A DNA stretch of 64,000 bases from Robiginitomaculum sp. Its GTDB lineage: Bacteria > Pseudomonadota > Alphaproteobacteria > Caulobacterales > Maricaulaceae. Below, one piece after another: positions 1,149-24,031 of this stretch. The DNA lies in contig JAUZSF010000017.1 in the NCBI GenBank assembly GCA_030949705.1, forward strand, positions 62,001 to 126,000. Reading direction: 5' to 3'. Made by a program: the position numbers and the translations under genes. The notes beneath the pieces are model-generated. The model was not told the origin of the DNA. It saw only the letters and a program-made list of their open reading frames with translations, and did no database searches. Each line of letters begins with the position of its first letter. The stretch's first letter is position 1.

Positions 1149-1427
1149 ATGAAATCATCACAATCAGCAGATACGATGAATGGTGCAGAAGCGGTTATGC
1201 TGGAAATCCAGACCCATTTGCGGGCCCGGGCAGGTGAAAGTGCCATCATTGGGCCGGACACCAATATCACCCGTGATCTGGGCCTCGATTCGCTGGCCAT
1301 CATGGATTTTATTTTTGACCTTGAAGACAGCTTTGATATTTCCATCCCCATGGAACGCATTGCCGAGGTGCAAACCTTGGCCGATTTAGCCAAAGCGATA
1401 GAAGTCCTGCAAAAGGAAGCGGCCTGA
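1149..1427 (+). CDS. acpR: Acyl carrier protein, sphingolipid-type
   Basis: A 92-residue acyl carrier protein. The phosphopantetheine site is the Ser in LGLDSLAIMDF (about residue 48), followed by the helix FDLEDSFDISIP typical of the fold. It sits 1 base upstream of serine palmitoyltransferase, the position held by the dedicated ACP in Caulobacter sphingolipid loci. There it is thought to present the acyl chain used by Spt. The symbol follows that locus and is by context. The start is uncertain: the first ATG has a tandem repeat instead of a Shine-Dalgarno, and ATGs at 1176 and 1197 would also leave a full ACP domain. Probably translationally coupled to the next gene. Confidence 0.88.
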   Translation: MKSSQSADTMNGAEAVMLEIQTHLRARAGESAIIGPDTNITRDLGLDSLAIMDFIFDLEDSFDISIPMERIAEVQTLADLAKAIEVLQKEAA

Positions 1428-1428
1428 T

Positions 1429-2766
1429 ATGAGTAGCATATTCGATAAATTTGCGCCCTTGCAGGAACAACATGCCAGCCTGACGGCGCTGGGCCGCAGC
1501 CCGGCCGATATCGAGTTTCAGGAAATCATATCGCCAACCGAAGCCACCTTAAATGGCAAACGCACGATTTTGATGGGTACCAATAATTATTTGGGCCTGA
1601 CCTTTGATGATGAGGCCGTTGAAGCGGCCATCGAATCCTTGAGAACCGAAGGCACCGGCACCACCGGATCACGCATCGCCAATGGCAGTTATGATGGTCA
1701 TAAAGAGCTGGAAAAAGAACTGGCCGAATTTTATGGCATGCGCTCGGCCATTTTGTTTTCCACCGGCTATCAGGCCAATCTGGGGGCCATTGCCGCCCTG
1801 GCTGGTCGCGATGATTATCTGTTGATTGATGCGGACAGCCACGCCAGCATTTATGATGCCTGCCGTCTCAGCGATGCTCAGGTCATCCGCTTTCGCCACA
1901 ATGATCCACAAAACCTGGCCCGCAAGCTGGAACGTCTGGAGGGCACTTCGGGCAGCAAGCTGATTGTGGTCGAAAGCATTTATTCCATGCTGGGTGATAT
2001 GGCGCCCTTGAAGGAATTCATTGAAATCAAGAAAAAATACGGCGCGTATTTGCTGATCGATGAAGCCCATTCCCTGGGGGTTATGGGTGAAAAGGGTCGT
2101 GGCCTTTGCGAACAAACCGGCCTGGAAGACGATGTGGATTTTATCACCGGCACGTTTTCCAAAAGTATTGGCACCGTTGGCGGCTTTCTGGTTTCCAATC
2201 TGCCGGGCCTGGACATTGTACGCTTTGTCAGCCGCCCCTATATGTTTACCGCCAGCCCGCCGCCATCTGTGGTGGCATCGGCCAGAAAGACCTTGTCAAA
2301 AATTGCCGGGGCAACGGACTTACGCAAGAAACTTTGGGACAATGCAGGCCAGCTGTATAACGGCCTGAAAGCCGCCGGGTTTGAGCTTGGCCCTACCTTA
2401 AGCCCGATTGTCGCCATTCGCCTTTCGGACTCGGAAAAGGCCATTGCCCTGTGGAATGGTCTTTTGGATGCCGGGATATACACCAATCTGGCACTGCCCC
2501 CGGCAACGCCCTTTGGCTGGTATTTGCTGCGTTCTTCCATCAGCGCGGCCCATACCCCCGAACAGATCGCGCTGGCGGTGGATGTCTGTAGCACCATCGG
2601 CAGAGAACTGGGCTTGATCGCCGTGTCCAACCGCAAAAATGCTGAAGAAATGCAAGTCAATGGGGCGAAAACCCTTAATGGCGCTTCTGAAAAGCGCCCT
2701 TTTTCCACATCTGAGCCAGAATCTGCGGTGCCGACAAGAGCGGGTGCGCCCGTTGCCAGGGCGTAA
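1429..2766 (+). CDS. spt: Serine palmitoyltransferase (alpha-oxoamine synthase)
   Basis: A PLP-dependent enzyme that condenses L-serine with a long-chain acyl thioester to 3-ketosphinganine, the first step of sphingolipid synthesis; cytosolic. Fold-type I aminotransferase motifs are in order: NNYLGL (52-57), GTGTTGSR (75-82), DADSHASIYD with the PLP-stacking His138, DEAHSLG (211-217) and the PLP lysine K245 in TFSKSIG. KBL and HemA belong to the same superfamily, but the adjacent ACP and ceramide genes favour Spt. The ORF is 445 residues, longer than the roughly 400 expected. The last 35 or so residues look non-native and cross a hairpin with a T-run. One missing A in the A-run near 2668-2671 would restore a TAA just before the hairpin, so the tail may be a sequencing artefact. 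Confidence 0.9.
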   Translation: MSSIFDKFAPLQEQHASLTALGRSPADIEFQEIISPTEATLNGKRTILMGTNNYLGLTFDDEAVEAAIESLRTEGTGTTGSRIANGSYDGHKELEKELAEFYGMRSAILFSTGYQANLGAIAALAGRDDYLLIDADSHASIYDACRLSDAQVIRFRHNDPQNLARKLERLEGTSGSKLIVVESIYSMLGDMAPLKEFIEIKKKYGAYLLIDEAHSLGVMGEKGRGLCEQTGLEDDVDFITGTFSKSIGTVGGFLVSNLPGLDIVRFVSRPYMFTASPPPSVVASARKTLSKIAGATDLRKKLWDNAGQLYNGLKAAGFELGPTLSPIVAIRLSDSEKAIALWNGLLDAGIYTNLALPPATPFGWYLLRSSISAAHTPEQIALAVDVCSTIGRELGLIAVSNRKNAEEMQVNGAKTLNGASEKRPFSTSEPESAVPTRAGAPVARA

Positions 2767-3628
2767 GCGTGAGGGTTATTCCCGTTCGCCGTTCTATTTT
2801 CCAGGCAACATAATCGGCACGGCCTTCAAAGGTCACGGCCCCTTTGAGAATACGCAATAAATTGACGCTTTTGCTGGCCATGCGCCGTGCCAGCCATTGA
2901 CGTTTCATGGCCTTGCGTCGGTCATCCTCCATGGGGATATGATAGGTGTTTTTCCCAGCTGAGGCAGGCAAAAAACCCGCCGCCATCATGGCTGGCAGAA
3001 AGAGATTGTCATACCGCGCGGCAGCCAGCTCAACGATCAAATCAGCACGGCTGGCATCTTCGATACGCAATTCAGCGGCATAGGTGGCCCGAAAGAGCGC
3101 CCGCCAAAATGCACCGGGTGCACCACAATCGGGCCCAAAACATACCGCCCAGGTCATCGCCGTCATTACCGCATCACGCAAGGTCTCATGCACGGCCTCC
3201 TTGGCCATATCATCACGTGCATAGATCAGGGCGGCGGGCTGTGCAAAACGTGCCCAGATTGAAATATCCAAAGCACCGGGCCGCGCCAGCGCCGCAAAGC
3301 GCGACAGGGTCATAATGGCGACTTTGGCATGTACCGGGCGGCCTTCATATTCACTTTTGAAATAGCGCACAAAGGGAGGCACCGCCTTGTGCACAGCACG
3401 GGAAATGAGACCATCGCCATAGCCTTGTGGTCCTTTGGTCAGGATATAAAAATCCATCAGGCCCGCACCATCACCGGTGCGCAGACAAGAGCCATAAAAC
3501 AGCACCGCCTGGGCCTGATCGCCCATTTCCTGGACCAGTTTTTGTACCAGAAATCTGGCCTCATCCATTACCGGCTGATCCATCTCTGCCGTAATAAAAT
3601 CGTCAAGTTCGTCCTGGGCCCTGATCAT
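2675..3628 (-). CDS. Nucleotidyltransferase-like protein of the ceramide phospholipid pathway
   Basis: A 317-residue protein with an N-terminal polymerase-beta-like nucleotidyltransferase signature: YGSCLR (45-50), then an acidic residue in LMDFYIL (57-63). The C-terminal two thirds are helical and basic (KRQWLARRM), with no domain I can name. It overlaps the ceramide kinase-like gene by 4 bases (ATGA type), so the two are co-translated. From memory, Caulobacter has a three-gene set (cpgABC) for ceramide phosphoglycerate synthesis comprising a nucleotidyltransferase-like protein, a kinase and a phosphoesterase-like protein. This gene fits the first fold. Inference: it transfers or activates the headgroup. 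The reaction is not visible in the sequence. Confidence 0.7.
   Translation of the reverse strand: MIRAQDELDDFITAEMDQPVMDEARFLVQKLVQEMGDQAQAVLFYGSCLRTGDGAGLMDFYILTKGPQGYGDGLISRAVHKAVPPFVRYFKSEYEGRPVHAKVAIMTLSRFAALARPGALDISIWARFAQPAALIYARDDMAKEAVHETLRDAVMTAMTWAVCFGPDCGAPGAFWRALFRATYAAELRIEDASRADLIVELAAARYDNLFLPAMMAAGFLPASAGKNTYHIPMEDDRRKAMKRQWLARRMASKSVNLLRILKGAVTFEGRADYVAWKIERRTGITLTLTPWQRAHPLLSAPQILAQMWKKGAFQKRH
2680..2704 (+). terminator. Candidate rho-independent terminator at the end of spt
   Basis: GGCGCTT, a short loop, AAGCGCC, then CTTTTT on the + strand. It lies inside the annotated 3' ends of both spt and the convergent nucleotidyltransferase gene. Its position suggests the true spt stop lies just before it. 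Confidence 0.6.
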
Positions 3629-4611
3629 GGTGCAATAAAATCAACTTGCATATCACTGGTAAAATGCAACCGGCCCGTGGGACCCGGCTGAAAGGTTTCC
3701 CCATCAATGATAAAGGGATTGTGGGTTTCGATTTTTAATTCATTGGCACTGCCACTGCGATAACCCGCAGCCGCCATCCAGGGTTTTGTGCGCTTGGTGA
3801 AAATCGCAATCAAGGCACGCAGCAAACGCGGTGGCGGTGCATCAATATCCAGCCAGATTATGGCTTTTGAGTTATCTCCCCAAAAGGGCCAGACCCCCAG
3901 CAAAAACGAATTCAGGGTCGTGAGAATGGCCCCAAAGCGCGGCCGGCTGGTATCCGGCTGATCATCAAAGCGAATGGTCATCGGCTCGCCGGCGCGCACC
4001 CCCTTTTCATTATCGCCAAACAAGGCCCCGCAAAAAAACCTGAAAATGGTCATCGCCACAGCGGCATTGTGGGTCAGCCCTTTGGAATGTACGTGCGTCT
4101 GTGCCAGATTGGTAGCTTCGCGATAGCCGCCAAACCCCACCAGCATGCCCTGCACCGGGGCATGAAACCCATCTTCCCATTCGACACGCAGCACATGGCG
4201 GCGGCGAATATGATGAGGGGTTATGCCGGTTTTGCGCAATTCAAGAAGACGGCGAAAGACGTCGCGCTTATATTTGGCGGTGCCGGTATCGTGGGCACAG
4301 ACATTGGTCTTGCCCGACGGCAGAATGCAAAACAGTGGCAAATCCTGGCCAAACACCCCGGGGCATTGGCTCAGCACTTCGCGCACCGTGCCATCCCCCC
4401 CGTCAATGACCAGAATGTCTACGCCCAGATCCCGAAAGCGCTCCAATATGCCGACAATATCCTGGGTTTGCTGGGCCTGTTCCACAAACACACCCGGATC
4501 GGCGGCGGCGGCCTGTTCAACGCCATAGCGTTTACGGTTCAGAGTGCTGAACGGATTTTGCACAACGCCGATGCGGGCTAATGTTGATGACAGGATCGGC
4601 TTCACAACCAC
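3625..4611 (-). CDS. cpgB: Ceramide / diacylglycerol kinase family protein
   Basis: A lipid kinase of the DAGK catalytic (LCB5) family, 328 residues. Visible motifs are IGVVQNPFS near residue 14, the nucleotide-binding GGDGTV at 71-76 and the LPSGKTN loop around residue 100, which takes the place of the usual GTGN. The family phosphorylates a lipid hydroxyl with ATP. Placement between spt and the other ceramide genes makes ceramide the likely substrate, as for CpgB of Caulobacter. The symbol is given on that basis. The start is a GTG at 4611 with no clear Shine-Dalgarno; a second GTG two codons on is equally possible. It is first in a two-gene operon with the nucleotidyltransferase-like gene. 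Confidence 0.8.
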   Translation of the reverse strand: MVVKPILSSTLARIGVVQNPFSTLNRKRYGVEQAAAADPGVFVEQAQQTQDIVGILERFRDLGVDILVIDGGDGTVREVLSQCPGVFGQDLPLFCILPSGKTNVCAHDTGTAKYKRDVFRRLLELRKTGITPHHIRRRHVLRVEWEDGFHAPVQGMLVGFGGYREATNLAQTHVHSKGLTHNAAVAMTIFRFFCGALFGDNEKGVRAGEPMTIRFDDQPDTSRPRFGAILTTLNSFLLGVWPFWGDNSKAIIWLDIDAPPPRLLRALIAIFTKRTKPWMAAAGYRSGSANELKIETHNPFIIDGETFQPGPTGRLHFTSDMQVDFIAP

Positions 4612-4733
4612 CGCACTTTCGGCCTAGACCATTGACATATTTGTGTTTATCGAACGTGTTGAGGGTGAGTAACTCCATATCCGCCTGATGGCAATGTTTG
4701 TCACCAGCCCACCGGGAATAATTTAAAGCCATT

Positions 4734-5642
4734 ATGACACAGCCTTTTCGTTTCGCCCATATTTCAGACATCCATTTACCTACCTTTGGGGCGGATTGCA
4801 CGCCGCCGACAGCCTTTTTGAACAAGCGTTTTTTTTCGATGCTCTCCTGGTTTGGCAAGCGGCGGCACATTCACCAAAAAGCCGTTACCGATCATCTGGT
4901 CAGGGATTGTCTGGCCAGCACACCGGACCATATTCTGGTCACTGGAGATTTGATCAACCTGTCCTTGGCCGGTGAATACGAGCGGGCCTTTGCATGGCTG
5001 CAAAGTCTGGGAACCCCGCAAACGGTTAGTGCCATTCCGGGCAATCACGACCTGTTACTGGACACCCCGGCCGCACAAAAGGGACTGGCGTTATATGCGC
5101 CTTATATGGGGAAGGGAGAAAAAAACAATCAAATTTTTCCATATGTTAAGCGAAGAAAAGACGTGGCCTTCATTGGCCTGTCCACAGCCATAGAAACGCC
5201 CCTTGGCTGGTGCAGCGGACGCCTGGGCGAGGCACAAAGAGAACAGCTGCGGACCATCTTGGATGAGGCACAGCGCGATAAGCTATGCCGCATTATAGCC
5301 CTGCACCACCCCCCTGCGGGCAAGCAAAAACCCCATGGCGGGCTGGAAGACCAACCGGAATTCGCCGCCATTATCGCCGAATATGGCGCAGAGCTGATCC
5401 TGCATGGCCATACCCATCAATCCTCCATGCACGCCCTGCCCGGCCCCAATGGCCCGGTACCGGTGATGGGGGTGGCCTCGCTTTCCGTGCGGCCGGGCAA
5501 GGGGTATCCGGTGGGGTGCTGGCACGAATACACGCTGGAACGTGTCGAAGACCATTGGCAAATTTTGTTAAACATTCACCGTTATACAGGCCCAGACACA
5601 CCACCGGCACGGGTTGCACAAGCAATCTTGAACAGCGCGTGA
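4734..5642 (+). CDS. Calcineurin-like metallophosphoesterase
   Basis: A 302-residue metallophosphoesterase with the full metal-ligand set: HISDIHLP (D12, H14), GDLIN (70-74), GNHD (102-105), ALHHPP and ILHGHTHQS. It would hydrolyse a phosphomonoester or phosphodiester in the cytosol or at the inner membrane face, since there is no signal peptide. It is divergent from the ceramide kinase gene and upstream of the LptF/G pair, so it is a candidate for trimming or remodelling the sphingolipid headgroup, possibly the third member of a cpgABC-like set. LpxH-type pyrophosphatases share the fold but are usually shorter. The catalytic family is certain and the substrate is inferred. Confidence 0.8.
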   Translation: MTQPFRFAHISDIHLPTFGADCTPPTAFLNKRFFSMLSWFGKRRHIHQKAVTDHLVRDCLASTPDHILVTGDLINLSLAGEYERAFAWLQSLGTPQTVSAIPGNHDLLLDTPAAQKGLALYAPYMGKGEKNNQIFPYVKRRKDVAFIGLSTAIETPLGWCSGRLGEAQREQLRTILDEAQRDKLCRIIALHHPPAGKQKPHGGLEDQPEFAAIIAEYGAELILHGHTHQSSMHALPGPNGPVPVMGVASLSVRPGKGYPVGCWHEYTLERVEDHWQILLNIHRYTGPDTPPARVAQAILNSA

Positions 5643-5740
5643 CACCCCCAGACCTTGCCAAAAGGGGTAGGTTTTTCTAGGGTCTAAACTCGTTCATTTC
5701 ATTTTACATACCCCCCCTATCACACCATTGAGCACCGCCA

Positions 5741-7024
5741 GTGAATAGCCAGTCCGACCTCATTTCTGCCCGCAGGACAGCGCTAAAACCGCGTCAGGGG
5801 CACTGGTTGATGCTGGACACCTATATGTTGCGCCTGTTGGCAAAACCCTTGATGGTTTCGCTGGCCGTGGTAATGGCGGCCTTGTTGCTGGAACGTCTGG
5901 TGCGCCTGTTCGAATTGCTGGCCGAACGCGGCGGCGGGGCCGGTATGGTCTTTGCCATGGCGGCCAATCTTATTCCCCATTATCTGGGATTGGCACTCCC
6001 GGCGGCATTTTGCTTTTCCATGCTAAGCGTTATTTTGCGTATGTGCGAAGAAAACGAAATGGATGCTCTGGAAGGCAGCGGGTTGTCGATACAGCGCATT
6101 GCGGTGCCCTATATCGGCGTCGGGGTTGTGTTGGCGCTGATCAGCGTGGCCCTGTTTGGCTATGTCCAACCCTATAGCCGCTATGCATTCAGCGCCATCA
6201 AGCACGCTTTGATCAATTCGCCCTGGGATGCCCAGGTCATCCCCGGCACCTTCATTGATACCGGCAATGGCATGCGCCTCAGTGCACTGGAGGTCGGCCC
6301 CGAGGGACGCAAGCTGAAAAACGTGTTTGTGTTTCAAATCACCCCGGATGAAAGCGGCAAAAAAACCGTCGAAACCGCCATTACGGCCAAAACCGGGGAA
6401 CTGATCGCCCACAAGGAAGCCGGCAAGCTGGTACTGAGCCTGAAAGACGGCATCACCATGCCGACCAGCGAGGACGGCGGCACCACGGCGCTGGCTTTTG
6501 GCTCGCTGGATATCAGCCGTGATTATGCCGCCAATGCCCCCATTTTTCGCCCCCGGGGCCTGAGTGAACGCGAAATGACCCTGGATGAGTTGTGGAATGA
6601 AGCGGCCTTGCCCGGGCCAGCGGACCGCCGGGCGCGCCTGAAATCTGAATTTCATGCCCGTCTGGTTCGGGGTATTTCCCTTATTTTTCTGCCCCTGTTG
6701 GCCATTCCCATGGGACTATCGGCCAAACGCACCCCCCGTTGGGAAAGTATCGCGCTGACCGGTGTGATTATCATTGCCTATCACCAGTCCATACAATTGC
6801 TGGAAGGATTTGGCGATTTGCAGATCATCAATCCCGGCCCTGCCATTTGGGGATTGGGAGCTGCCTTTGGACTCTTTTGTTCCTGGCTATTTTTCTCCAC
6901 CAAAGGCCAGGGCATGGGCATGCCACTGCGTCATGTATTCCGATTTGTCAGTTTTGTTACTCGACGAATTAGGCGCCTGTTGCCAACGCGTTTACGCCCT
7001 GAAAATCAGGCGCAAACCCCATGA
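5741..7024 (+). CDS. lptF: LptF/LptG (YjgP/YjgQ) family permease, first of a pair
   Basis: A polytopic inner-membrane protein of 427 residues in the LptF/LptG family. Transmembrane segments lie near the N-terminus (LRLLAKPLMVSLAVVMAALLL, cut short here by its charged flanks), there is a central periplasmic beta-rich part (roughly residues 150-300), and further membrane segments follow IFLPLLAIPMGLSAKR. In the Lpt system this subunit and its partner extract a lipid from the outer leaflet, powered by LptB. The next gene overlaps by 4 bases and encodes the second subunit. Both sit inside the ceramide gene cluster, between phosphoesterase and ceramide synthase, so they may serve sphingolipid rather than LPS. 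GTG start at 5741; an in-frame ATG lies at 5810. Confidence 0.85.
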   Translation: MNSQSDLISARRTALKPRQGHWLMLDTYMLRLLAKPLMVSLAVVMAALLLERLVRLFELLAERGGGAGMVFAMAANLIPHYLGLALPAAFCFSMLSVILRMCEENEMDALEGSGLSIQRIAVPYIGVGVVLALISVALFGYVQPYSRYAFSAIKHALINSPWDAQVIPGTFIDTGNGMRLSALEVGPEGRKLKNVFVFQITPDESGKKTVETAITAKTGELIAHKEAGKLVLSLKDGITMPTSEDGGTTALAFGSLDISRDYAANAPIFRPRGLSEREMTLDELWNEAALPGPADRRARLKSEFHARLVRGISLIFLPLLAIPMGLSAKRTPRWESIALTGVIIIAYHQSIQLLEGFGDLQIINPGPAIWGLGAAFGLFCSWLFFSTKGQGMGMPLRHVFRFVSFVTRRIRRLLPTRLRPENQAQTP

Positions 7025-8106
7025 TCCTGTCGCGCTATCTTTCCCGGCAAATGGCGCTCAAAATGTTTTGGGTGTTGCTCGCCTTTACCTCCCTCATGCA
7101 ATTGATCGACCTGTTGGGGGCCTCAACCGATATTATTGAACGGGGCGAAGGACTGTGGGGATTCTTGAAATATATTGCCTTGCGCCTGCCCATCACCATG
7201 CAGCACATGGTACCAATCTCGACCCTGTTGGGGGCGGCCCTGACCTTCTTTTCGCTGGCACAAAACAGCGAAATGATTGCGCTGCGCGGATCTGGCCAAA
7301 CCCCCTATCGCGCAGTTTTCATGCTGGTGCCCCTGACCTTGTTGATCGGCATTGCCTATTTCATACTTTCAGATCAGATCGTGCCCCGCGCCGACAAGGC
7401 TTTTGTATCCTGGTGGGAAAGCACAGACCCTAATGCGCAATCCAAAGACGCCGCCAATGCGGAACCGGGTGATGAGGTCTGGGCGCGCACCACCTTTAGC
7501 GTTATTCGCATCAAATCCCATGCCGAGGGCGGGCGCCATCTTGAAGGCGTGACCATTTATTCGCTGGATCAGAACCAACAGATATCCGAACGCATTGCCG
7601 CCAAAACCGCAGACTGGCAAAGCGAGGGCACCTGGATACTGAATGGTGTTGATCGCTATATCGGCAACGATGGTGGCTCCAGCACCTTTTCCATGTCGGC
7701 GATGAACTGGCATACAGCGCTGCGCCCTTCGACGGTTCTGGAACTGGCCAATCCGCAGGTGAGCATATCAACCTCTGGATCGCGCAAAGTGATCAAGGGG
7801 CGGGCCGCCGGGTCCCGGTCTGGCGATTATTATCAATTACAATTGCAAAAGGCCTATCTGACCCTGTTTTCACCTTTGATCATGCTGTTATTGGCCGCTC
7901 CTGTGGCCGCAGGTTTGCGCCGTTCGGGCACCACGACGCGCTATCTCGGGTTTGCCGTCATTGCTGGCTTCAGCTTTTTGCTGATGGACGGCATTTTACT
8001 TTCTCTGGGCCAAGCGCATATTGTGCCCATGTTTGCGGCGGCCTGGGCCACGGCCATACTTTTTGCCACAGGCGGCAGCTGGGTATTGTTACGTCTGGAA
8101 AATTAG
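7021..8106 (+). CDS. lptG: LptG/LptF (YjgP/YjgQ) family permease, second of a pair
   Basis: A 361-residue partner permease: ILSRYLSRQM at the start, membrane helices at the N-terminus, a periplasmic jellyroll-like middle and three helices at the C-terminus (LFSPLIMLLLAAPVAAG onwards). The SLAQNSEMIALRGSG motif after the second helix is the coupling-helix region of this family. The start codon overlaps the stop of the first permease (ATGA), so the two are made in a fixed ratio. The ceramide synthase candidate begins 10 bases after the stop, which puts lipid synthesis and permease on one transcript. Whether this is the cell's only LptFG or a dedicated sphingolipid copy cannot be told from the window. 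Confidence 0.87.
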   Translation: MILSRYLSRQMALKMFWVLLAFTSLMQLIDLLGASTDIIERGEGLWGFLKYIALRLPITMQHMVPISTLLGAALTFFSLAQNSEMIALRGSGQTPYRAVFMLVPLTLLIGIAYFILSDQIVPRADKAFVSWWESTDPNAQSKDAANAEPGDEVWARTTFSVIRIKSHAEGGRHLEGVTIYSLDQNQQISERIAAKTADWQSEGTWILNGVDRYIGNDGGSSTFSMSAMNWHTALRPSTVLELANPQVSISTSGSRKVIKGRAAGSRSGDYYQLQLQKAYLTLFSPLIMLLLAAPVAAGLRRSGTTTRYLGFAVIAGFSFLLMDGILLSLGQAHIVPMFAAAWATAILFATGGSWVLLRLEN

Positions 8107-8116
8107 GTCGGAATTT

Positions 8117-9250
8117 ATGGATACCTCCCTTAGCATTGCTCCCGTCACCAATAAGGCGCAGCTGAAAGAGTTCATACGCCTGCCCAATGATCTGTATGGC
8201 CAAGACCCAAACTGGATTCCGGCCCTGGAGATGGAACGTCTGGGCATATTGGATTCCAAACAAAGCCCCTATTTTGAACATGCCGAAGCGCAATACTGGA
8301 TCGCCCGCCAAAACGGCAGGGCCGTAGGCCGCATCAGCGCGCAGATTGACCAGATGTCACTGGAAGCCAATGACAGCACCACCGGCCATTTTGGCATGAT
8401 TGTGGCGATTGATGATCCGGCGGTTGTCAAAGCCCTGCTGGAGACCGCTGAAAACTGGCTAAAAGAACGAGGCATGAAAACCGCACAGGGGCCGTTTAAC
8501 CTCTCTATCAATCAGGAAGTCGGCCTGTTGATCGAGGGGCGTGATACCCCCCCCATGATGTTGATGGCTCATGACCCGGCCTATATGGGTGGCCATATAG
8601 AGGCCGCGGGCTATGCCAAGGCCAAAGACCTGCTGGCCTATATTCGTGGCACGGATTTTCTGTTTCCGGAAAAATGGCGGCACATGGCTGAACGGCGCAG
8701 CGGCCATGTCACCATGCGCATGTTCGACATGAAAAACTATGATCGGGATATCAAGCATATCGTCAGCATTTTTAACGAGGCCTGGCACAATAACTGGAAC
8801 TTTGTGCCCATGACCGAAAAAGAAGTGGATCACATGGCCAAGGAATTACGCCCGCTGATCCGCAAGGAACTGGCCTGGTTTGCGGATATTGATGGAGAAC
8901 CGGCGGCCTTTATTGTCTGCCTGCCCGATGTGAACAACGCCATTGGCGATCTGGATGGAAAGCTGCTTCCCTTTGGCTGGCTAAAGCTCTTATGGCGCCT
9001 GAAAGTCAAACGCCCCGCCACAGCGCGCGTTTTGCTGATGGGGGTGCGTAAAAAGTTCAGCGATGGGGTTCTGGGTCAGATTTTGCCGTTTCGACTGATT
9101 TATGCCCTGGAATCTGATCTTTACCAATCACCGATCAAACGGGTCGAAATGTCATGGATTCTGGAAGATAACGAACCGGTCAAGCGGATGATCGAAACCT
9201 TGGGCGGCAAGGCTTATAAAACCTATCGCGTCTATGAAAAGGCCCTATAG
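8117..9250 (+). CDS. GNAT-fold N-acyltransferase, candidate bacterial ceramide synthase
   Basis: A 377-residue protein. The N-terminal half reads as a GNAT-type domain (FIRLPNDLYGQDPNWIPAL, then the helix WLKERGMKTAQGPFNLS). The second half carries a conserved FNEAWHNNWNFVPM block. This pattern matches the large GNAT-like family that includes the Caulobacter bacterial ceramide synthase (bCerS), which N-acylates the long-chain base. The start is the ATG at 8117, 10 bases after lptG; a longer in-frame reading from 8021 overlaps lptG and is rejected. Function rests on the family resemblance plus the cluster; I did not identify catalytic residues. Confidence 0.78.
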   Translation: MDTSLSIAPVTNKAQLKEFIRLPNDLYGQDPNWIPALEMERLGILDSKQSPYFEHAEAQYWIARQNGRAVGRISAQIDQMSLEANDSTTGHFGMIVAIDDPAVVKALLETAENWLKERGMKTAQGPFNLSINQEVGLLIEGRDTPPMMLMAHDPAYMGGHIEAAGYAKAKDLLAYIRGTDFLFPEKWRHMAERRSGHVTMRMFDMKNYDRDIKHIVSIFNEAWHNNWNFVPMTEKEVDHMAKELRPLIRKELAWFADIDGEPAAFIVCLPDVNNAIGDLDGKLLPFGWLKLLWRLKVKRPATARVLLMGVRKKFSDGVLGQILPFRLIYALESDLYQSPIKRVEMSWILEDNEPVKRMIETLGGKAYKTYRVYEKAL

Positions 9251-10192
9251 CCAGCCTGCTTCACAATACCATTTTGCCGTTTCGGCAAATCCTTCTTCCA
9301 GTGTGATTTTGGGGCTCCACAGATCTGCCGGCACCAAATGGGTTTCCCGGGCCGACCAGTCAGAATGCAGGATTTCACGGGCCTTGCCCTCATCAAAAAT
9401 ACTCACCTGACCACGGAGCCGTGCCATCGCCCCATTCAGCCGCGCCGCCAGTACCACCAGGCCCGGCGGCACATAAAATGGCCGCGGCGGCCTGGATACT
9501 GCCTGACAGGCCACGGTGACGATCTGTGGCCAGCTATATCCATCCAGTTCCGCATCCGAGAGTTCCAGCAATTTCTGTGTAGGTCCCCCATCACACAGAG
9601 CACACAGGGCATCGGCCGCATCGCGCACATGGATCAGGCTTAATCGTGCCGCCTTGTTGCCCAGCATGGGGTGTATCGGCAAGCGGGCGGCCTTGAATAT
9701 GCTTAAACTTTCACGATCCCAGGGGCCGTAAATGGCCGGCGGACGCACCACCAGCCAATTGCCATCCAGCGCTATTACCGCTTCTTCGGCTTTTCTCTTG
9801 CTGGCTCCATAGGCTGACAAATGCGGCTCGCGCGCCGTAAAGGAGGAAACACTGATAAAGCGAGCGTCGGGCGCGTTTTGCCGCCATGCTGCGGCTATGC
9901 GTCTCGTACCACCGAAATTGGTGCGCATCAGGCTGTCCGCATCGCCCTTAATGGCCCCGGCAATATGGATAATGGCATCCGCCCCGGTGGCCAGCCGCTT
10001 TAGGGCCGCCTCGTCCTCCAGATCGCCGGGCACCAGTTCCAGCCGGTGGGGGGCGAGTTGTTCATGAATGGGCAGTGAGCGCACAATCGCCCGCACGCGC
10101 CATCCTTTGGAAGACAAGGCATCCACCAGATAACGTCCCAGAAACCCGGTGGCACCCGTTAATGCTACCAGAGGGGCGCCTGGTTGGCTCAT
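9245..10192 (-). CDS. cerR: NAD(P)-dependent SDR/epimerase, candidate ceramide reductase
   Basis: A 315-residue extended short-chain dehydrogenase: nucleotide-binding TGATGFLG (12-19), acidic LEDEA, and the catalytic YGASK pair near 127-131 with SVSSFTA before it. In Caulobacter the epimerase-like CerR in the sphingolipid cluster reduces the 3-keto group after N-acylation. The same neighbours here (spt, ACP, acyl ligase) support that role. The start codon overlaps the stop of the upstream acyl-AMP ligase gene by 4 bases, so both are one operon. The 3' end overlaps the ceramide synthase gene tail-to-tail by 6 bases. Confidence 0.82.
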   Translation of the reverse strand: MSQPGAPLVALTGATGFLGRYLVDALSSKGWRVRAIVRSLPIHEQLAPHRLELVPGDLEDEAALKRLATGADAIIHIAGAIKGDADSLMRTNFGGTRRIAAAWRQNAPDARFISVSSFTAREPHLSAYGASKRKAEEAVIALDGNWLVVRPPAIYGPWDRESLSIFKAARLPIHPMLGNKAARLSLIHVRDAADALCALCDGGPTQKLLELSDAELDGYSWPQIVTVACQAVSRPPRPFYVPPGLVVLAARLNGAMARLRGQVSIFDEGKAREILHSDWSARETHLVPADLWSPKITLEEGFAETAKWYCEAGWL

Positions 10193-11952
10193 GCGTTGCC
10201 CGGAGCGTGCACAGTTGAGGATTTGCGCGCCCGTTCAAAAGCCCCTTCCAGATACATCTGGCGGGCTTTCATGCGACTCAATTTACCCGAAGAGGTTTGC
10301 GGCAGGCTGTGCGGCGGCACGCTGACCACTTTGGCCATCAGGCCGTATTCAGCGCTGACCAGGCCTTCAATGGCACTGAGCAGCGAGTTGCGCCGTTCCG
10401 GGTCGGATATGCGGGTCTGTACCAACAGGATCACCTGTTCGCCTTCGCCATCATCCACCGAAAACGCCGCCACATCCCCGGCTCGCAGAACTTCGGAACC
10501 GTTTTCCGCCGCCCATTCCAGATCCTGTGGCCAGACATTGCGGCCATTGACCAAAATCAGATCCTTCACCCGGCCAGTAATGACAATCTGGCCATCCCGG
10601 AAATACCCAAGATCACCAGTATCCAGCCATCCATCGGGGGTCAGCACACAGGCGGTTTCGCCGGCATTGCCATAATATTCTCGCATCAGGCTGGGGCCGG
10701 TCACAAAAATTCGCCCGACTTCGCCCTCTTTCAGTGCCTTGCCCGAGGCATCGCGCACTTCCATTTTGTGACCGGGCAACGGGCCGCCGCACAATACAAA
10801 AGCACGCTGGGGAACGCCACTGCCATTGGTAGTGGTCACCGCGCGGGATTCCTTGTCCAGGATATTCAGGTCCAGACGATCATATACCAAGCCCTGCCCT
10901 TGGGGCGCAAAACTGATCGCCAGGGTAGCCTCAGCCATGCCATAGCTGGCAACAAAGGCCTTTTCGTCAAACCCTACCGGGGCAAAGCACTCAACAAAGC
11001 GTTCCAGGACGGGCAGGCGGATCATATCCCCGCCAATACCGGCCGCACGCCAGCAGGAAAGGTCCAGATGGTCCAGCTTGGCGGTTCGTGCCCGGCGGGC
11101 GCACAATTCATACCCGAAGGATGGGCTGTAGGCCAAGGTGGCACGATTATCAGAAATCATTTGCAGCCAGCGTAACGAACGGCGGGCAAAATCACGGGTT
11201 GGCAAAAGATCAATGGAGAGCTGGGAAGCCATCGGGGCCAGTAAAAACCCAACCAGCCCCATATCATGATAGAACGGCAACCAGGAACAGGCCCGATCCC
11301 CTTCGCGTATGGCCAGCCCATCACGACAAATGCCACGGGCATTGGCCATAAAGGCCTCGTGGGTGATCTCAACCCCCAAAGGAAACCGCGTTGTGCCCGA
11401 TGAAAACTGCAAATAGCTCATGTCCTGGGCTTTGGCGCGAGGTAATTCCACATCAGCCCCCTGTTTGGGCGGCAGAGCGGCCAGCGACCCGGCATAGACC
11501 AGGTCCAGCGTTTGCGCCGCATCTTCAATCCATTCCACCAGAGAGGCCGGTCCAAAGACCGCCTGGGCACCACAGACCTGCATTATGCGTTTCAGATGCG
11601 CAATATACCCTTCCTTGCCGCCAAATGCGACCGGCAATGGTAAGGGCGCCGGAATCAGTCCCGCATAGGCACAGCCAAAGAAGGTTGCCACAAAGTCTGC
11701 ATCGGTTTCCGCAATAATCGCCACCCGGTCCCCAGCGACCAGCCCTGAAGCCAGCATACGCTGGGCCGCGTCCAGTGCACGGGTTCGCAATTCCGAATAA
11801 GGTACCACGTCTTCCAGGCCATTGCGGGCACTATAGAAGTTCAATCCGCTCTGACCTTTGGCGGCATAGTCCAAAGCATCACTCAGCAGTTCAAAATCCG
11901 CCAGACGGCGTGGAAGACCGCTCTTTGTTGGGGTAGGTTGAATATCAATCAT
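10189..11952 (-). CDS. Fatty acyl-AMP ligase / acyl-ACP synthetase of the sphingolipid cluster
   Basis: An adenylate-forming enzyme of about 587 residues. It activates a fatty acid as acyl-AMP and would load it on the cluster's ACP. Seen in order: the P-loop-like YLQFSSGTTRFPLG, WLPFYHDMGLVGF (the fatty acyl-AMP ligase signature), YGMAEATL, then DGWLDTGDLGYF and the C-terminal VKDLILVNGRN hinge. A homologue sits beside cerR in Caulobacter. I start it at the ATG at 11952 (MIDIQPTP); an upstream in-frame start at 12009 would add 19 residues, and neither has a strong Shine-Dalgarno. It is followed by cerR with a 4-base overlap. Confidence 0.85.
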   Translation of the reverse strand: MIDIQPTPTKSGLPRRLADFELLSDALDYAAKGQSGLNFYSARNGLEDVVPYSELRTRALDAAQRMLASGLVAGDRVAIIAETDADFVATFFGCAYAGLIPAPLPLPVAFGGKEGYIAHLKRIMQVCGAQAVFGPASLVEWIEDAAQTLDLVYAGSLAALPPKQGADVELPRAKAQDMSYLQFSSGTTRFPLGVEITHEAFMANARGICRDGLAIREGDRACSWLPFYHDMGLVGFLLAPMASQLSIDLLPTRDFARRSLRWLQMISDNRATLAYSPSFGYELCARRARTAKLDHLDLSCWRAAGIGGDMIRLPVLERFVECFAPVGFDEKAFVASYGMAEATLAISFAPQGQGLVYDRLDLNILDKESRAVTTTNGSGVPQRAFVLCGGPLPGHKMEVRDASGKALKEGEVGRIFVTGPSLMREYYGNAGETACVLTPDGWLDTGDLGYFRDGQIVITGRVKDLILVNGRNVWPQDLEWAAENGSEVLRAGDVAAFSVDDGEGEQVILLVQTRISDPERRNSLLSAIEGLVSAEYGLMAKVVSVPPHSLPQTSSGKLSRMKARQMYLEGAFERARKSSTVHAPGNA

Positions 11953-12108: not shown

Positions 12109-12254
12109 GCAAGGCTCAGGCCATAGGTGCAGAACTTATGTCCCCATTTTGGTACGTAAACATACAGGCATAGTGTGGACTTGGATGCGGATAAAGCGTA
12201 ACGCTGCGCGCGTCTGGATTGGAGCCGGATTATCAATTCTCAAGGAGCCAGATT

Positions 12255-13861
12255 GTGAAGCACACGGGCCTGCACATTAACACAGCGGCACTAAGCGCGC
12301 TGGGCATTGAAAACAAACAGGATGTTCATTGGAACTGGCCAAATGCCGCTCTTTATGACGAAGCCATTGGCCGTCATGAAGGTCAGGTAGCGCAAGGCGG
12401 CCCCCTGGTCGTCAAAACCGGCCAGCACACCGGACGTTCGGCCAAGGACAAATATATCGTTCGCGATGCGGAGACCGAAAATTCGGTCTGGTGGGAACAA
12501 AATGTCTCCATGGCCCCTTCACAGTTTGACGTTCTGTGGGATGATTTCAAAGCCTATATGGGCGAACAGGAATTATTCGTACAGGCGCTCTTTGGCGGCG
12601 CTGATCTGGATCACCGCCTGCCGGTCAATGTAATCACGGAATTTGCCTGGCATTCTCTTTTCATTCGCCATTTGCTGCGCATTCCGGCCGAGACCGAACT
12701 GGAAAATTTTGCGGCGGAATTCACCATTATCAGCATGCCGGGCTTTCGCGCTGATCCCATCCGCCATGGCACTCGTTCGGAAACCGTCATTGCGGTCAAT
12801 ATGACCAAGCGTCTGGTACTGATCGGCGGCACGTCCTATGCGGGTGAAATCAAAAAGTCCGTATTTTCCATTTTGAATTACCTGCTGCCCAAAAAAATCC
12901 ATCATGCCCATGCATTGCTCGGTCAATGTGGGCCATGATAATGCCGATGATGCGGCCATTTTCTTTGGCCTTTCCGGCACCGGCAAAACCACCCTGTCGG
13001 CCAATCCGGACCGCACCCTGATTGGCGATGACGAACATGGCTGGTCAGAAAACGGTCTGTTTAACTTTGAAGGCGGCTGTTACGCCAAAATGATCCATCT
13101 TAGTGAAAAAGCTGAGCCAGAAATTTATGCCACCACCAAAATGTGGGCTACGGTGCTGGAAAATGTGGTGATGGATCCGGATACCCGCACCTTGGATCTG
13201 GATGATGCCAGTCTGGCTGAAAACAGCCGCGGGGCCTATCCCCTAAGTGCCATTCCCAATGCCAGCCCCACCGGGCGCTGTGGTCATCCTAAAAATATTA
13301 TCATGCTGACCGCCGATGCCTTTGGGGTTCTGCCTCCGATTGCCCGGATGAGTCCCAGCCAGGCCATGTATCACTTCCTGTCCGGCTATACCGCCAAGGT
13401 CGCCGGCACGGAAAAAAGGCATTACCGAACCACAGGCCACCTTTTCCACCTGTTTTGGCGGCCCGTTCATGCCCCGCCACCCATCCGAATATGGCAATTT
13501 GCTGCGTGAACTCATCGCCGAGCACAAGGTTACCTGCTGGCTGGTCAATACCGGCTGGACCGGTGGCCCCTATGGCACCGGCAATCGCATGCCGATCAAG
13601 GCCACCCGTGCTTTGCTGGCCGCGGCCCTGGATGGGTCACTGAATGCCGCTGAATTTCGCCTGGACGAGAATTTTGGTCTTGAGGTTCCCGTTTCGGTGC
13701 CCGACGTAGACAGTGCCATTTTGGACCCGCGTTCAACATGGGCAGATAAAGACGCCTATGACGCCCAGGCCAAAAAGCTGGTGGCGATGTTTATCAACAA
13801 TTTTGCCAAATTCGCCAGTCATGTTGGCCAAGACGTTCGCGAGGCCGGGCCCAAGGGTTAA
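12255..13861 (+). CDS. pckA: Phosphoenolpyruvate carboxykinase (ATP), two frameshifts
   Basis: ATP-dependent PEP carboxykinase, converting oxaloacetate to PEP in gluconeogenesis; cytosolic. The start is a GTG at 12255 behind CAAGGAG at good spacing. The N-terminal part carries [14 protein letters not shown]. The P-loop [10 protein letters not shown] and GDDEHGW follow in the second reading frame, and [10 protein letters not shown] in the third. The frame changes after an A7 run (12891-12897) and again after an A6 run (13412-13417). Removing one A from each gives an unbroken protein of about 535 residues reading [11 protein letters not shown] and GTEKGITEP across the joints. I regard both as sequencing errors rather than a pseudogene, since all catalytic motifs are intact. 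Confidence 0.9.
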
Positions 13862-23215: not shown

Positions 23216-24031
23216 TCAGCGTTTTTCAAAGCCAAAATTGGTGACGGTGGTTAGCTGTTCAAACCTTTTAAACAGCGCCTTTCCACGAACCGTTACCGTC
23301 TGATGAGTAGTCACCAGCGGGCCATCCGGCCAGGCCGGTGCAATATCCATCATAATTTCAAAATGTTTGATTTTGGCCACAGCCACCGGCTTAAAGCTTT
23401 CCGGGGCGAAAAATCGCACGCCGGTCAGGCGCGGCTTGTCCTTGCTGATGAACATTTCGCCTCTCAAATGGCTTGCGAAATCGTCATCATCCTCTTTTGT
23501 CTTGCCTTTTTTCTCGTGCTCTTCCCCGCCATCATCACCAAAATTAAAAGAGCCGGGGGCTGGTCGAAAGGAAAACACGTACGCCTGTTCTTCTTCGCGC
23601 TTGAAATGGGCAGAATTATTCAACAGTTTTTTGGGATCCTTGATCACCAGGTCACGGTCGGGGGCCGACTCTTCGCCCTTTTTTGCCATTTTCTGTAAAT
23701 CTTTTTGGCGCTGTTTAAGCATTTTACGGCGCGCCTTGGGGTTTTCCTCCTCACTGGGGTGAAGAAGAATATATTGCGCGTCGGCCGGACGCTGTGGATC
23801 AAAGGAAAACTCGATCAGGGGGTTATCTTCATCGCCGGTTTCCACGCGGGTGGAAAACGCAAAACGGTCTTCCTTGGCGTTATCTCTACGGGTTTGCGCA
23901 TCCGCAATAGCCGTCGCCAGCGCGGCCTCGGCCGAAGCGGTCAGAGCGACATCGCCAAACGCCACCATGGGAGAGAAGACAATGAGGCAAAAGATAGCAG
24001 CAAAAGGATAAAAAGACCGATACATGGGCAA
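23216..24031 (-). CDS. Secreted protein of unknown function (paralogue of the gene at 1-736)
   Basis: 271 residues with a signal peptide (SFYPFAAIFCLIVFSPMVAFG; the second Met at 24025 is equally likely). The mature protein opens with an Ala-rich helix and has a very Lys/Arg/Gln-rich segment (RRKMLKQRQKDLQKM). An acidic linker (GEEHEKKGKTKEDDDD) follows, and then a conserved C-terminal module with AKIKHFEI, APAWPDGPLV and TVTNFGFEKR. The C-terminal module and the order of blocks match the gene at the left edge. No known domain recognised. Possibly an envelope protein. The acidic linker is absent from the paralogue. Confidence 0.8.
   Translation of the reverse strand: MPMYRSFYPFAAIFCLIVFSPMVAFGDVALTASAEAALATAIADAQTRRDNAKEDRFAFSTRVETGDEDNPLIEFSFDPQRPADAQYILLHPSEEENPKARRKMLKQRQKDLQKMAKKGEESAPDRDLVIKDPKKLLNNSAHFKREEEQAYVFSFRPAPGSFNFGDDGGEEHEKKGKTKEDDDDFASHLRGEMFISKDKPRLTGVRFFAPESFKPVAVAKIKHFEIMMDIAPAWPDGPLVTTHQTVTVRGKALFKRFEQLTTVTNFGFEKR

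Follow-up and report, generated by a model that had tools for sequence, protein, structure and literature searches.

In a 64,000-nucleotide stretch of the Robiginitomaculum sp. genome, here called the window (bases 62001–126000 of the 262,610-base contig JAUZSF010000017.1, from an assembly of 2.83 Mb that is 92% complete), ten intact open reading frames lie between positions 1149 and 11952, on strands ++--++++-- and in the order acpR, spt, cpgC, cpgB, a phosphoesterase gene, lptF2, lptG2, cerS, cerR and aasR. They are read here, at a probability of about 0.7, as a chromosomal island that builds one sphingolipid, decorates it and exports it. Judged by its genes, the island is a shortened variant of the Caulobacter ceramide and phosphosphingolipid cluster; that cluster, LptF2/LptG2/LptC2 and 11 biosynthetic genes are already published (PMC11324152), and the novelty is lower than an initial annotation of the window had implied. 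The value of the present analysis lies in a clean presence/absence series among relatives, the likeness of CpgC to the cytidine diphosphate (CDP)-diacylglycerol synthase Tam41, and a third LptF/LptG pair.

Distribution of the five-gene block

Gene order across relatives, which the initial annotation had singled out for comparison, is conserved: the same ten-gene order occurs in all five same-genus cpgC loci that were fetched (L161–L165) and in that of Robiginitomaculum sp. metagenome-assembled genome (MAG) M2_metabat2 (L061), and an identical order in these loci makes a chance arrangement untenable. L061 also has the same neighbours, fdhD and a secreted protein, and differs in sequence, with cpgC at 48%, the phosphoesterase at 49% and cerR at 57% identity, and acpR, spt, cpgB, lptF2, lptG2, cerS and aasR at 66–76%.

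The closest named Spt loci found, from which the nearest records may be missing, belong to Robiginitomaculum MAGs. Three of these (L062, L063 and L064) have cerS directly after spt, at distances of 13, 40 and 124 bp, respectively, whereas in the window, L061 and L161–L165 the two genes are 5.31–5.44 kb apart, with cpgC, cpgB, the phosphoesterase gene, lptF2 and lptG2 in between. These close relatives thus lack the entire five-gene block. L063 lies in a member of the window’s own genus (genome G386, with identical Spt coordinates), which has two LptF/LptG genes, forming one pair; two or three pairs were counted in each of the other six genus genomes and in all 13 cpgC-bearing genomes in which every candidate was scored (4–6 genes), the count among block-less relatives covering G386 alone.

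CpgC homologues were found in 43 of 385 genomes of the class, one of them doubtful (G067, E 7e-4), and in 103 of 398 genomes of the order, including six of the seven sampled from the genus, the window’s own among them. Among 48 of 80 named Spt loci, those longer than 20 kb, cpgC and lptF2 are both present in 25 and both absent in 20, with two holding cpgC only and one lptF2 only (Fisher p 3e-10); the match in this last locus, L073, fits LptF1 better. For cpgC and cpgB in the same loci the corresponding counts are 26 with both, 21 with neither, one and zero. Of the class genomes, 20 of 42 with cpgC had at least four scored LptF/LptG genes, vs 4 of 343 without cpgC, G067 being set aside and all counts being lower bounds from at most five scored candidates.

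The genus offers a small natural set, with CpgB and CpgC and no CpgA found, together with close relatives that have the ceramide core and lack the headgroup and export block. Such a series narrows the genes that may suffice for ceramide phosphoglycerate (CPG), and links LptF2/LptG2 with the headgroup, not with ceramide.

Island genes and the Caulobacter cluster

The ten genes that the initial annotation named are all present, as intact frames of the expected Pfam and NCBIfam families. The ceramide synthesis set of the Caulobacter type is complete, at 41–56% identity to Caulobacter sp. AP07 (locus L114). It comprises acpR, an acyl carrier protein gene for Spt that adjoins spt in most relatives (1149–1427, + strand; PF00550, E 1.7e-12); spt, for serine palmitoyltransferase (1429–2766, +; NF047599 at 642 bits against a cut-off of 500; 56% identity), which groups with other Spt sequences in a tree; cerS, for a ceramide synthase of the GNAT type (8114–9250, +; 51%), whose match to PF00583 (Acetyltransf_1) is weak at 24.1 vs 20.7 bits; cerR, for a reductase of the short-chain dehydrogenase/reductase type (9245–10192, −; PF01370 (Epimerase), E 1.7e-24; 41%); and aasR, for a fatty acyl-AMP ligase/acyl-ACP synthetase (10189–11952, −; NF006624 at 838 bits against 600; 54%).

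Both genes of the CPG branch occupy the same positions as in L114: the cpgC homologue (2675–3628, −; 42% identity), in the position of CC_1161 and with a Tam41-like predicted fold, and the cpgB homologue (3625–4611, −; 37%), a ceramide kinase candidate with 36.0 bits to PF00781 (DAGK_cat) and a GGDGT motif. They are followed by the gene for a metallophosphoesterase of the calcineurin type in the position of CC_1158 (4734–5642, +; PF00149, E 1.7e-18; metal-site motifs present; 39% to the L114 homologue), lptF2 (5741–7024, +; PF03739 at 188.6 bits; 37%) and lptG2 (7021–8106, +; PF03739 at 217 bits), the last two lying outside the lipopolysaccharide (LPS)-type LptF and LptG clades, respectively. 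The short motifs expected of these families are present in the island proteins, including the attachment motif DLGLDSL in AcpR and GTFSK, with the pyridoxal phosphate lysine, in Spt. The convergent genes spt and cpgC overlap by 92 nt (2675–2766), within a C-terminal extension of Spt.

In Caulobacter crescentus the cluster spans CC_1152–CC_1168 and serves ceramide, CPG and CPG2; published mutants show that CPG depends on CC_1160 and CC_1161, and CPG2 on CC_1159, CC_1158, CC_1153 and CC_1152 (PMC11324152). The same paper proposes, without studying it, that LptF2, LptG2, LptC2 and a flippase (CC_1166) transport the lipids (PMC11324152). Gene identities in the window rest on AP07 and on a MAG titled ‘bacterium’ (L112), not on the C. 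crescentus proteins; in both, gene order and families fit the published cluster. The match to the Caulobacter ceramide and CPG genes, which the initial annotation had proposed, is supported by comparison with AP07 and with the cluster as published (PMC11324152). All ten genes are shared with the C. crescentus cluster, and the relative order spt / cpgC cpgB / phosphoesterase lptF2 lptG2 cerS is that seen in AP07. The island differs from the cluster in that its ten genes include no cpgA, CofC-like, cpgD, HIT, flippase or LptC2 gene, and in that cerR and aasR lie behind cerS on the other strand. In L114 the phosphoesterase gene, in the CC_1158 position, sits between cpgA and a HIT-like gene (21.3 bits, just below the cut-off) in the CC_1157 position.

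Azospirillum sp. RU38E (L072) shares the order acpR, spt, cpgC, cpgB, phosphoesterase, lptF2, lptG2 and cerS, and likewise has no cpgA match in its 21-kb locus; it differs in having aasR and cerR before acpR and in its lower identity (spt 58%, lptF2 46%). The initial annotation had looked to the best hits of the kinase, nucleotidyltransferase and GNAT proteins as a check; this was carried through across whole genomes for cpgC, while the comparison of the kinase and the GNAT protein was confined to loci selected by their cpgC or spt.

CpgC and the predicted CDP-ceramide step

Neither Pfam nor NCBIfam yields a match for the CpgC protein of the window at E 0.01. An AlphaFold2 model built with 31 sequences has a mean pLDDT of 92.4, and its top five Foldseek matches in the PDB are all Tam41 chains (E 5.7e-10 to 8.2e-8, TM-scores 0.47–0.59); the best has E 5.7e-10, probability 1.00 and a TM-score of 0.50 by query length and 0.56 by target length. 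Aminoglycoside nucleotidyltransferases follow, from E 2.8e-5. The likeness to Tam41 CDP-diacylglycerol synthase (PDB 6ig2, 6ig4 and 7ecd) is one of fold, over most of the model; the difference is that no sequence profile joins the two, and that the predicted substrate of CpgC is ceramide-1-phosphate. CpgC is consequently classed as working like Tam41, not as a member of its family, since a Pfam-level sequence match is absent.

On this model CpgC is most likely a cytidine triphosphate (CTP):ceramide-1-phosphate cytidylyltransferase making CDP-ceramide, which, given that the best matches are to Tam41, would then be the expected intermediate of CPG. A CDP-diacylglycerol synthase had already been raised for CpgC from an InterPro match (PMC11324152), and the predicted structure strengthens that guess. 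Papers from 2025 and 2026 give the mechanism of CpgC as unidentified, and CpgD as a phosphoglycerate cytidylyltransferase (PMC12275187, PMC13228409). The Tam41 likeness gives CpgC a testable activity. In four of the five genus loci cpgC and the phosphoesterase gene diverge faster (63–70% identity) than spt, lptF2/lptG2, cerS and aasR (80–90%), with cpgB (69–75%) and cerR (65–78%) intermediate.

Headgroup and expected product

In the proposed pathway AasR would load a fatty acid onto AcpR, Spt would condense it with serine, and CerS and CerR would yield dihydroceramide. The Tam41-like CpgC would use CTP to form CDP-ceramide, which a further enzyme, whether PgsA, CpgC itself or the product of a gene outside the island, would convert to CPG. 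LptF2/LptG2, paralogues of the LPS extraction permease, would lift the phosphosphingolipid from the inner membrane towards the outer membrane.

The product should be CPG at most, not CPG2, because of the Caulobacter mutant phenotypes and since no cpgA and no convincing cpgD were found. The full pathway with headgroup steps that the initial annotation had inferred is accordingly not supported, and its reading, mostly right, is overstated in this respect. A CpgA query matched nothing in the window, L161–L165 or L061, loci that were covered in place of a genome-wide search with the CpgA protein. The CDP-alcohol transferase family PF01066 has exactly one match in each of the six island-bearing genus genomes (92–99% complete); in the window’s genome this is a PgsA-like protein of 182 residues, behind a frame that we labelled UvrC-like by reading. 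The best cpgD match in the genome, 33% over 117 aa, is not convincing, and is a nucleotidyltransferase beside an APH-type kinase, an arrangement as in MurU. Relatives in the order have cpgD at 47–49% (L166, L171, L176 and L178) or 70–74% (L174 and L175). No CofC-like (CC_1153) or HIT gene was found in the window, the fetched stretches of its own genome or the genus loci, the rest of the genome not having been searched. A missing phosphatidylserine decarboxylase was considered as a special feature and rejected, as 13 of the 14 genomes searched lack a match and the Caulobacter control gives none either.

A headgroup other than phosphoglycerate is an unlikely alternative. PgsA might join CDP-ceramide and glycerol-3-phosphate, and the phosphoesterase dephosphorylate the result to give ceramide phosphoglycerol, or ceramide-1-phosphate might itself be the end product. 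The PgsA-like protein is the sole CDP-alcohol transferase match, the CpgC fold resembles a CDP-diacylglycerol synthase, and the phosphoesterase profile, searched against solved chains, finds 2xmo first and then phosphodiesterases of the GpdQ/Rv0805 type. However, 13 of the 21 long loci that lack cpgC have the phosphoesterase too, and Caulobacter, which has homologues of these genes, makes phosphoglycerate lipids (PMC11324152).

That CPG2 is made as in Caulobacter, and that its cpgA, cpgD and CofC-like gene lie at other sites, fall in an assembly gap or have diverged beyond the reach of the searches used, appears quite improbable against the CPG product preferred here. An assembly 92% complete leaves room for it, and cpgA is often distant from cpgC, with a match in 18 of 40 fetched cpgC stretches and none nearby in 22. 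A divergent cpgA elsewhere may have been missed, since the genome was searched by PF01066 only, to which a true CpgA scores just 39.9 bits, with no recovery control for CpgA. Yet the search that returned a single, PgsA-like match in the window’s genome, and one in each of its island-bearing relatives, found two in the island-less G386, the second at 51 bits, and the best cpgD-like candidate has the weak identity and the APH-type neighbour described above.

This second CDP-alcohol transferase of G386 was itself rejected as cpgA, since the CpgA query matches nothing there and its neighbour is an inositol-1-phosphate synthase. The locus (L185:4830–11593) holds that synthase (PF01658), then the CDP-alcohol transferase and, at some remove, a nucleotidyltransferase; the frames in between were named flippase-like and RND-like by reading. 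It is a possible inositol-lipid locus.

LptF/LptG permeases

A tree was built from 80 LptF/LptG rows, and in it LPS-type pairs form their own clades in both the LptF and the LptG halves, LPS-type meaning the pairs most like the LptD-linked pair of the window’s genome, where that linkage was checked. The island pair groups instead with the pairs of sphingolipid clusters, in the other clade (SH-aLRT 99 for LptF and 91 for LptG). Some 1.7 kb outside the window another LptF/LptG pair adjoins LptD and SurA, and since LpxC is present in the genome the organism probably makes LPS; the idea of an organism without LPS, using sphingolipids instead, was rejected given LpxC, LptD and the LptD-linked pair. 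That LptF2/LptG2 are spare LPS permeases, incidentally placed in the island, is very improbable: they share a Pfam family with the LPS pair in an organism that probably makes LPS, but another pair lies beside LptD and SurA, the tree separates the two, and lptF2/lptG2 co-occur with cpgC and are absent together with cpgB and cpgC in G386.

A third LptF/LptG pair, likewise outside the LPS-type clades and grouping with the sphingolipid-cluster pairs, lies on contig C4 of the genome (L009:4498–11871; C4:128498–135871), at the end of an operon for GT4, GT4, GT2, a DUF2334 protein, a membrane protein without a Pfam match, LptF and LptG. This order is kept in three of seven genus genomes. Homologues of the membrane protein occur in 43 of 398 genomes of the order, and in 22 fetched loci outside the genus LptF adjoins in 20, these LptF proteins not having been placed on the tree, and a GT4 of at least 45% identity is present in 19. 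Caulobacter glycosphingolipids require two GT4 enzymes, Sgt1 and Sgt2 (PMC6445935). We tentatively suggest, with more doubt than confidence, that three Lpt-type permeases work in parallel and that each serves its own lipid class, with LPS as the cargo of LptFG1, the island's phosphosphingolipid as that of LptFG2, and a glycolipid, perhaps a glycosphingolipid, as that of LptFG3. If true, Lpt would be a general scheme for lipid export to the outer membrane, each permease pair being inherited along with the biosynthetic genes for its cargo.

Weighing the island reading

Several observations tell against reading the ten genes as such an island, or against parts of that reading. The block is not universal, since five of the 40 fetched cpgC stretches (L044, L045, L049, L172 and L180) have cpgC and cpgB but lack further island genes in the vicinity, and LptF2/LptG2-type matches occur in only 32 of the 40, with the phosphoesterase in 22. 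Fewer than four LptF/LptG genes were scored in 22 of the 42 cpgC-positive class genomes, the Fisher tests treat related genomes as independent, so that their p-values only rank associations, and the LptF/LptG tree was built quickly and drew long-branch warnings. The closeness of CpgC to Tam41 is structural only, with TM-scores of about 0.5; the Tam41 Pfam family is matched by none of 14 CpgC proteins at E 0.1, and CpgC profiles reach no Tam41 chain among PDB sequences. The genome of the window, moreover, is 92% complete. Lastly, the phosphoesterase does not track cpgC, being present in 21 of 27 long loci with it vs 13 of 21 without (p 0.34).

The presence of the phosphoesterase in those 13 loci also led us to reject it as strictly part of the CPG block. 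Reyranella-type and similar loci (L070, L075, L078, L090, L094, L106 and others) hold aasR, cerR, acpR, spt, the phosphoesterase gene and cerS, and gave no cpgB, cpgC or lptF/lptG match, hinting that in these loci the enzyme may serve ceramide synthesis itself.

Origin and neighbouring genes

The Spt and CerS sequences of the genus stand apart from those of other sampled genera of the family; a joint grouping is rejected by approximately unbiased (AU) tests (p 1e-51 for Spt, 2e-6 for CerS), which used quick trees, 13 rows vs 20, and a group chosen after the identities had been seen. In the Spt tree the sister group of the genus contains Azospirillum, Methylopila-type and Caulobacteraceae sequences. 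Either horizontal acquisition or a retained older second lineage would fit these trees.

A gene for a secreted protein lies beside acpR (2–736, −; cut by the window edge and complete at L007:16978–17736), where it is conserved in L061–L064 and four of the five same-genus loci, L162 being the exception; its membership of the island is uncertain. It keeps this place even in relatives without the headgroup block. The protein has no Pfam match, and its best match in a fold search is LolA (E 0.21, probability 0.30), with nothing under E 0.001, a weak hint at most of a LolA-type carrier. A second, related secreted protein is encoded at 23216–24031, and is 25% identical to the first. Behind aasR, at 12219–13861, a phosphoenolpyruvate carboxykinase gene runs through three successive frames (239, 201 and 130 aa; PF01293 for the first two), either because the gene is broken or because of errors in the sequence; the first two pieces have matches of 69–99% in same-genus loci.

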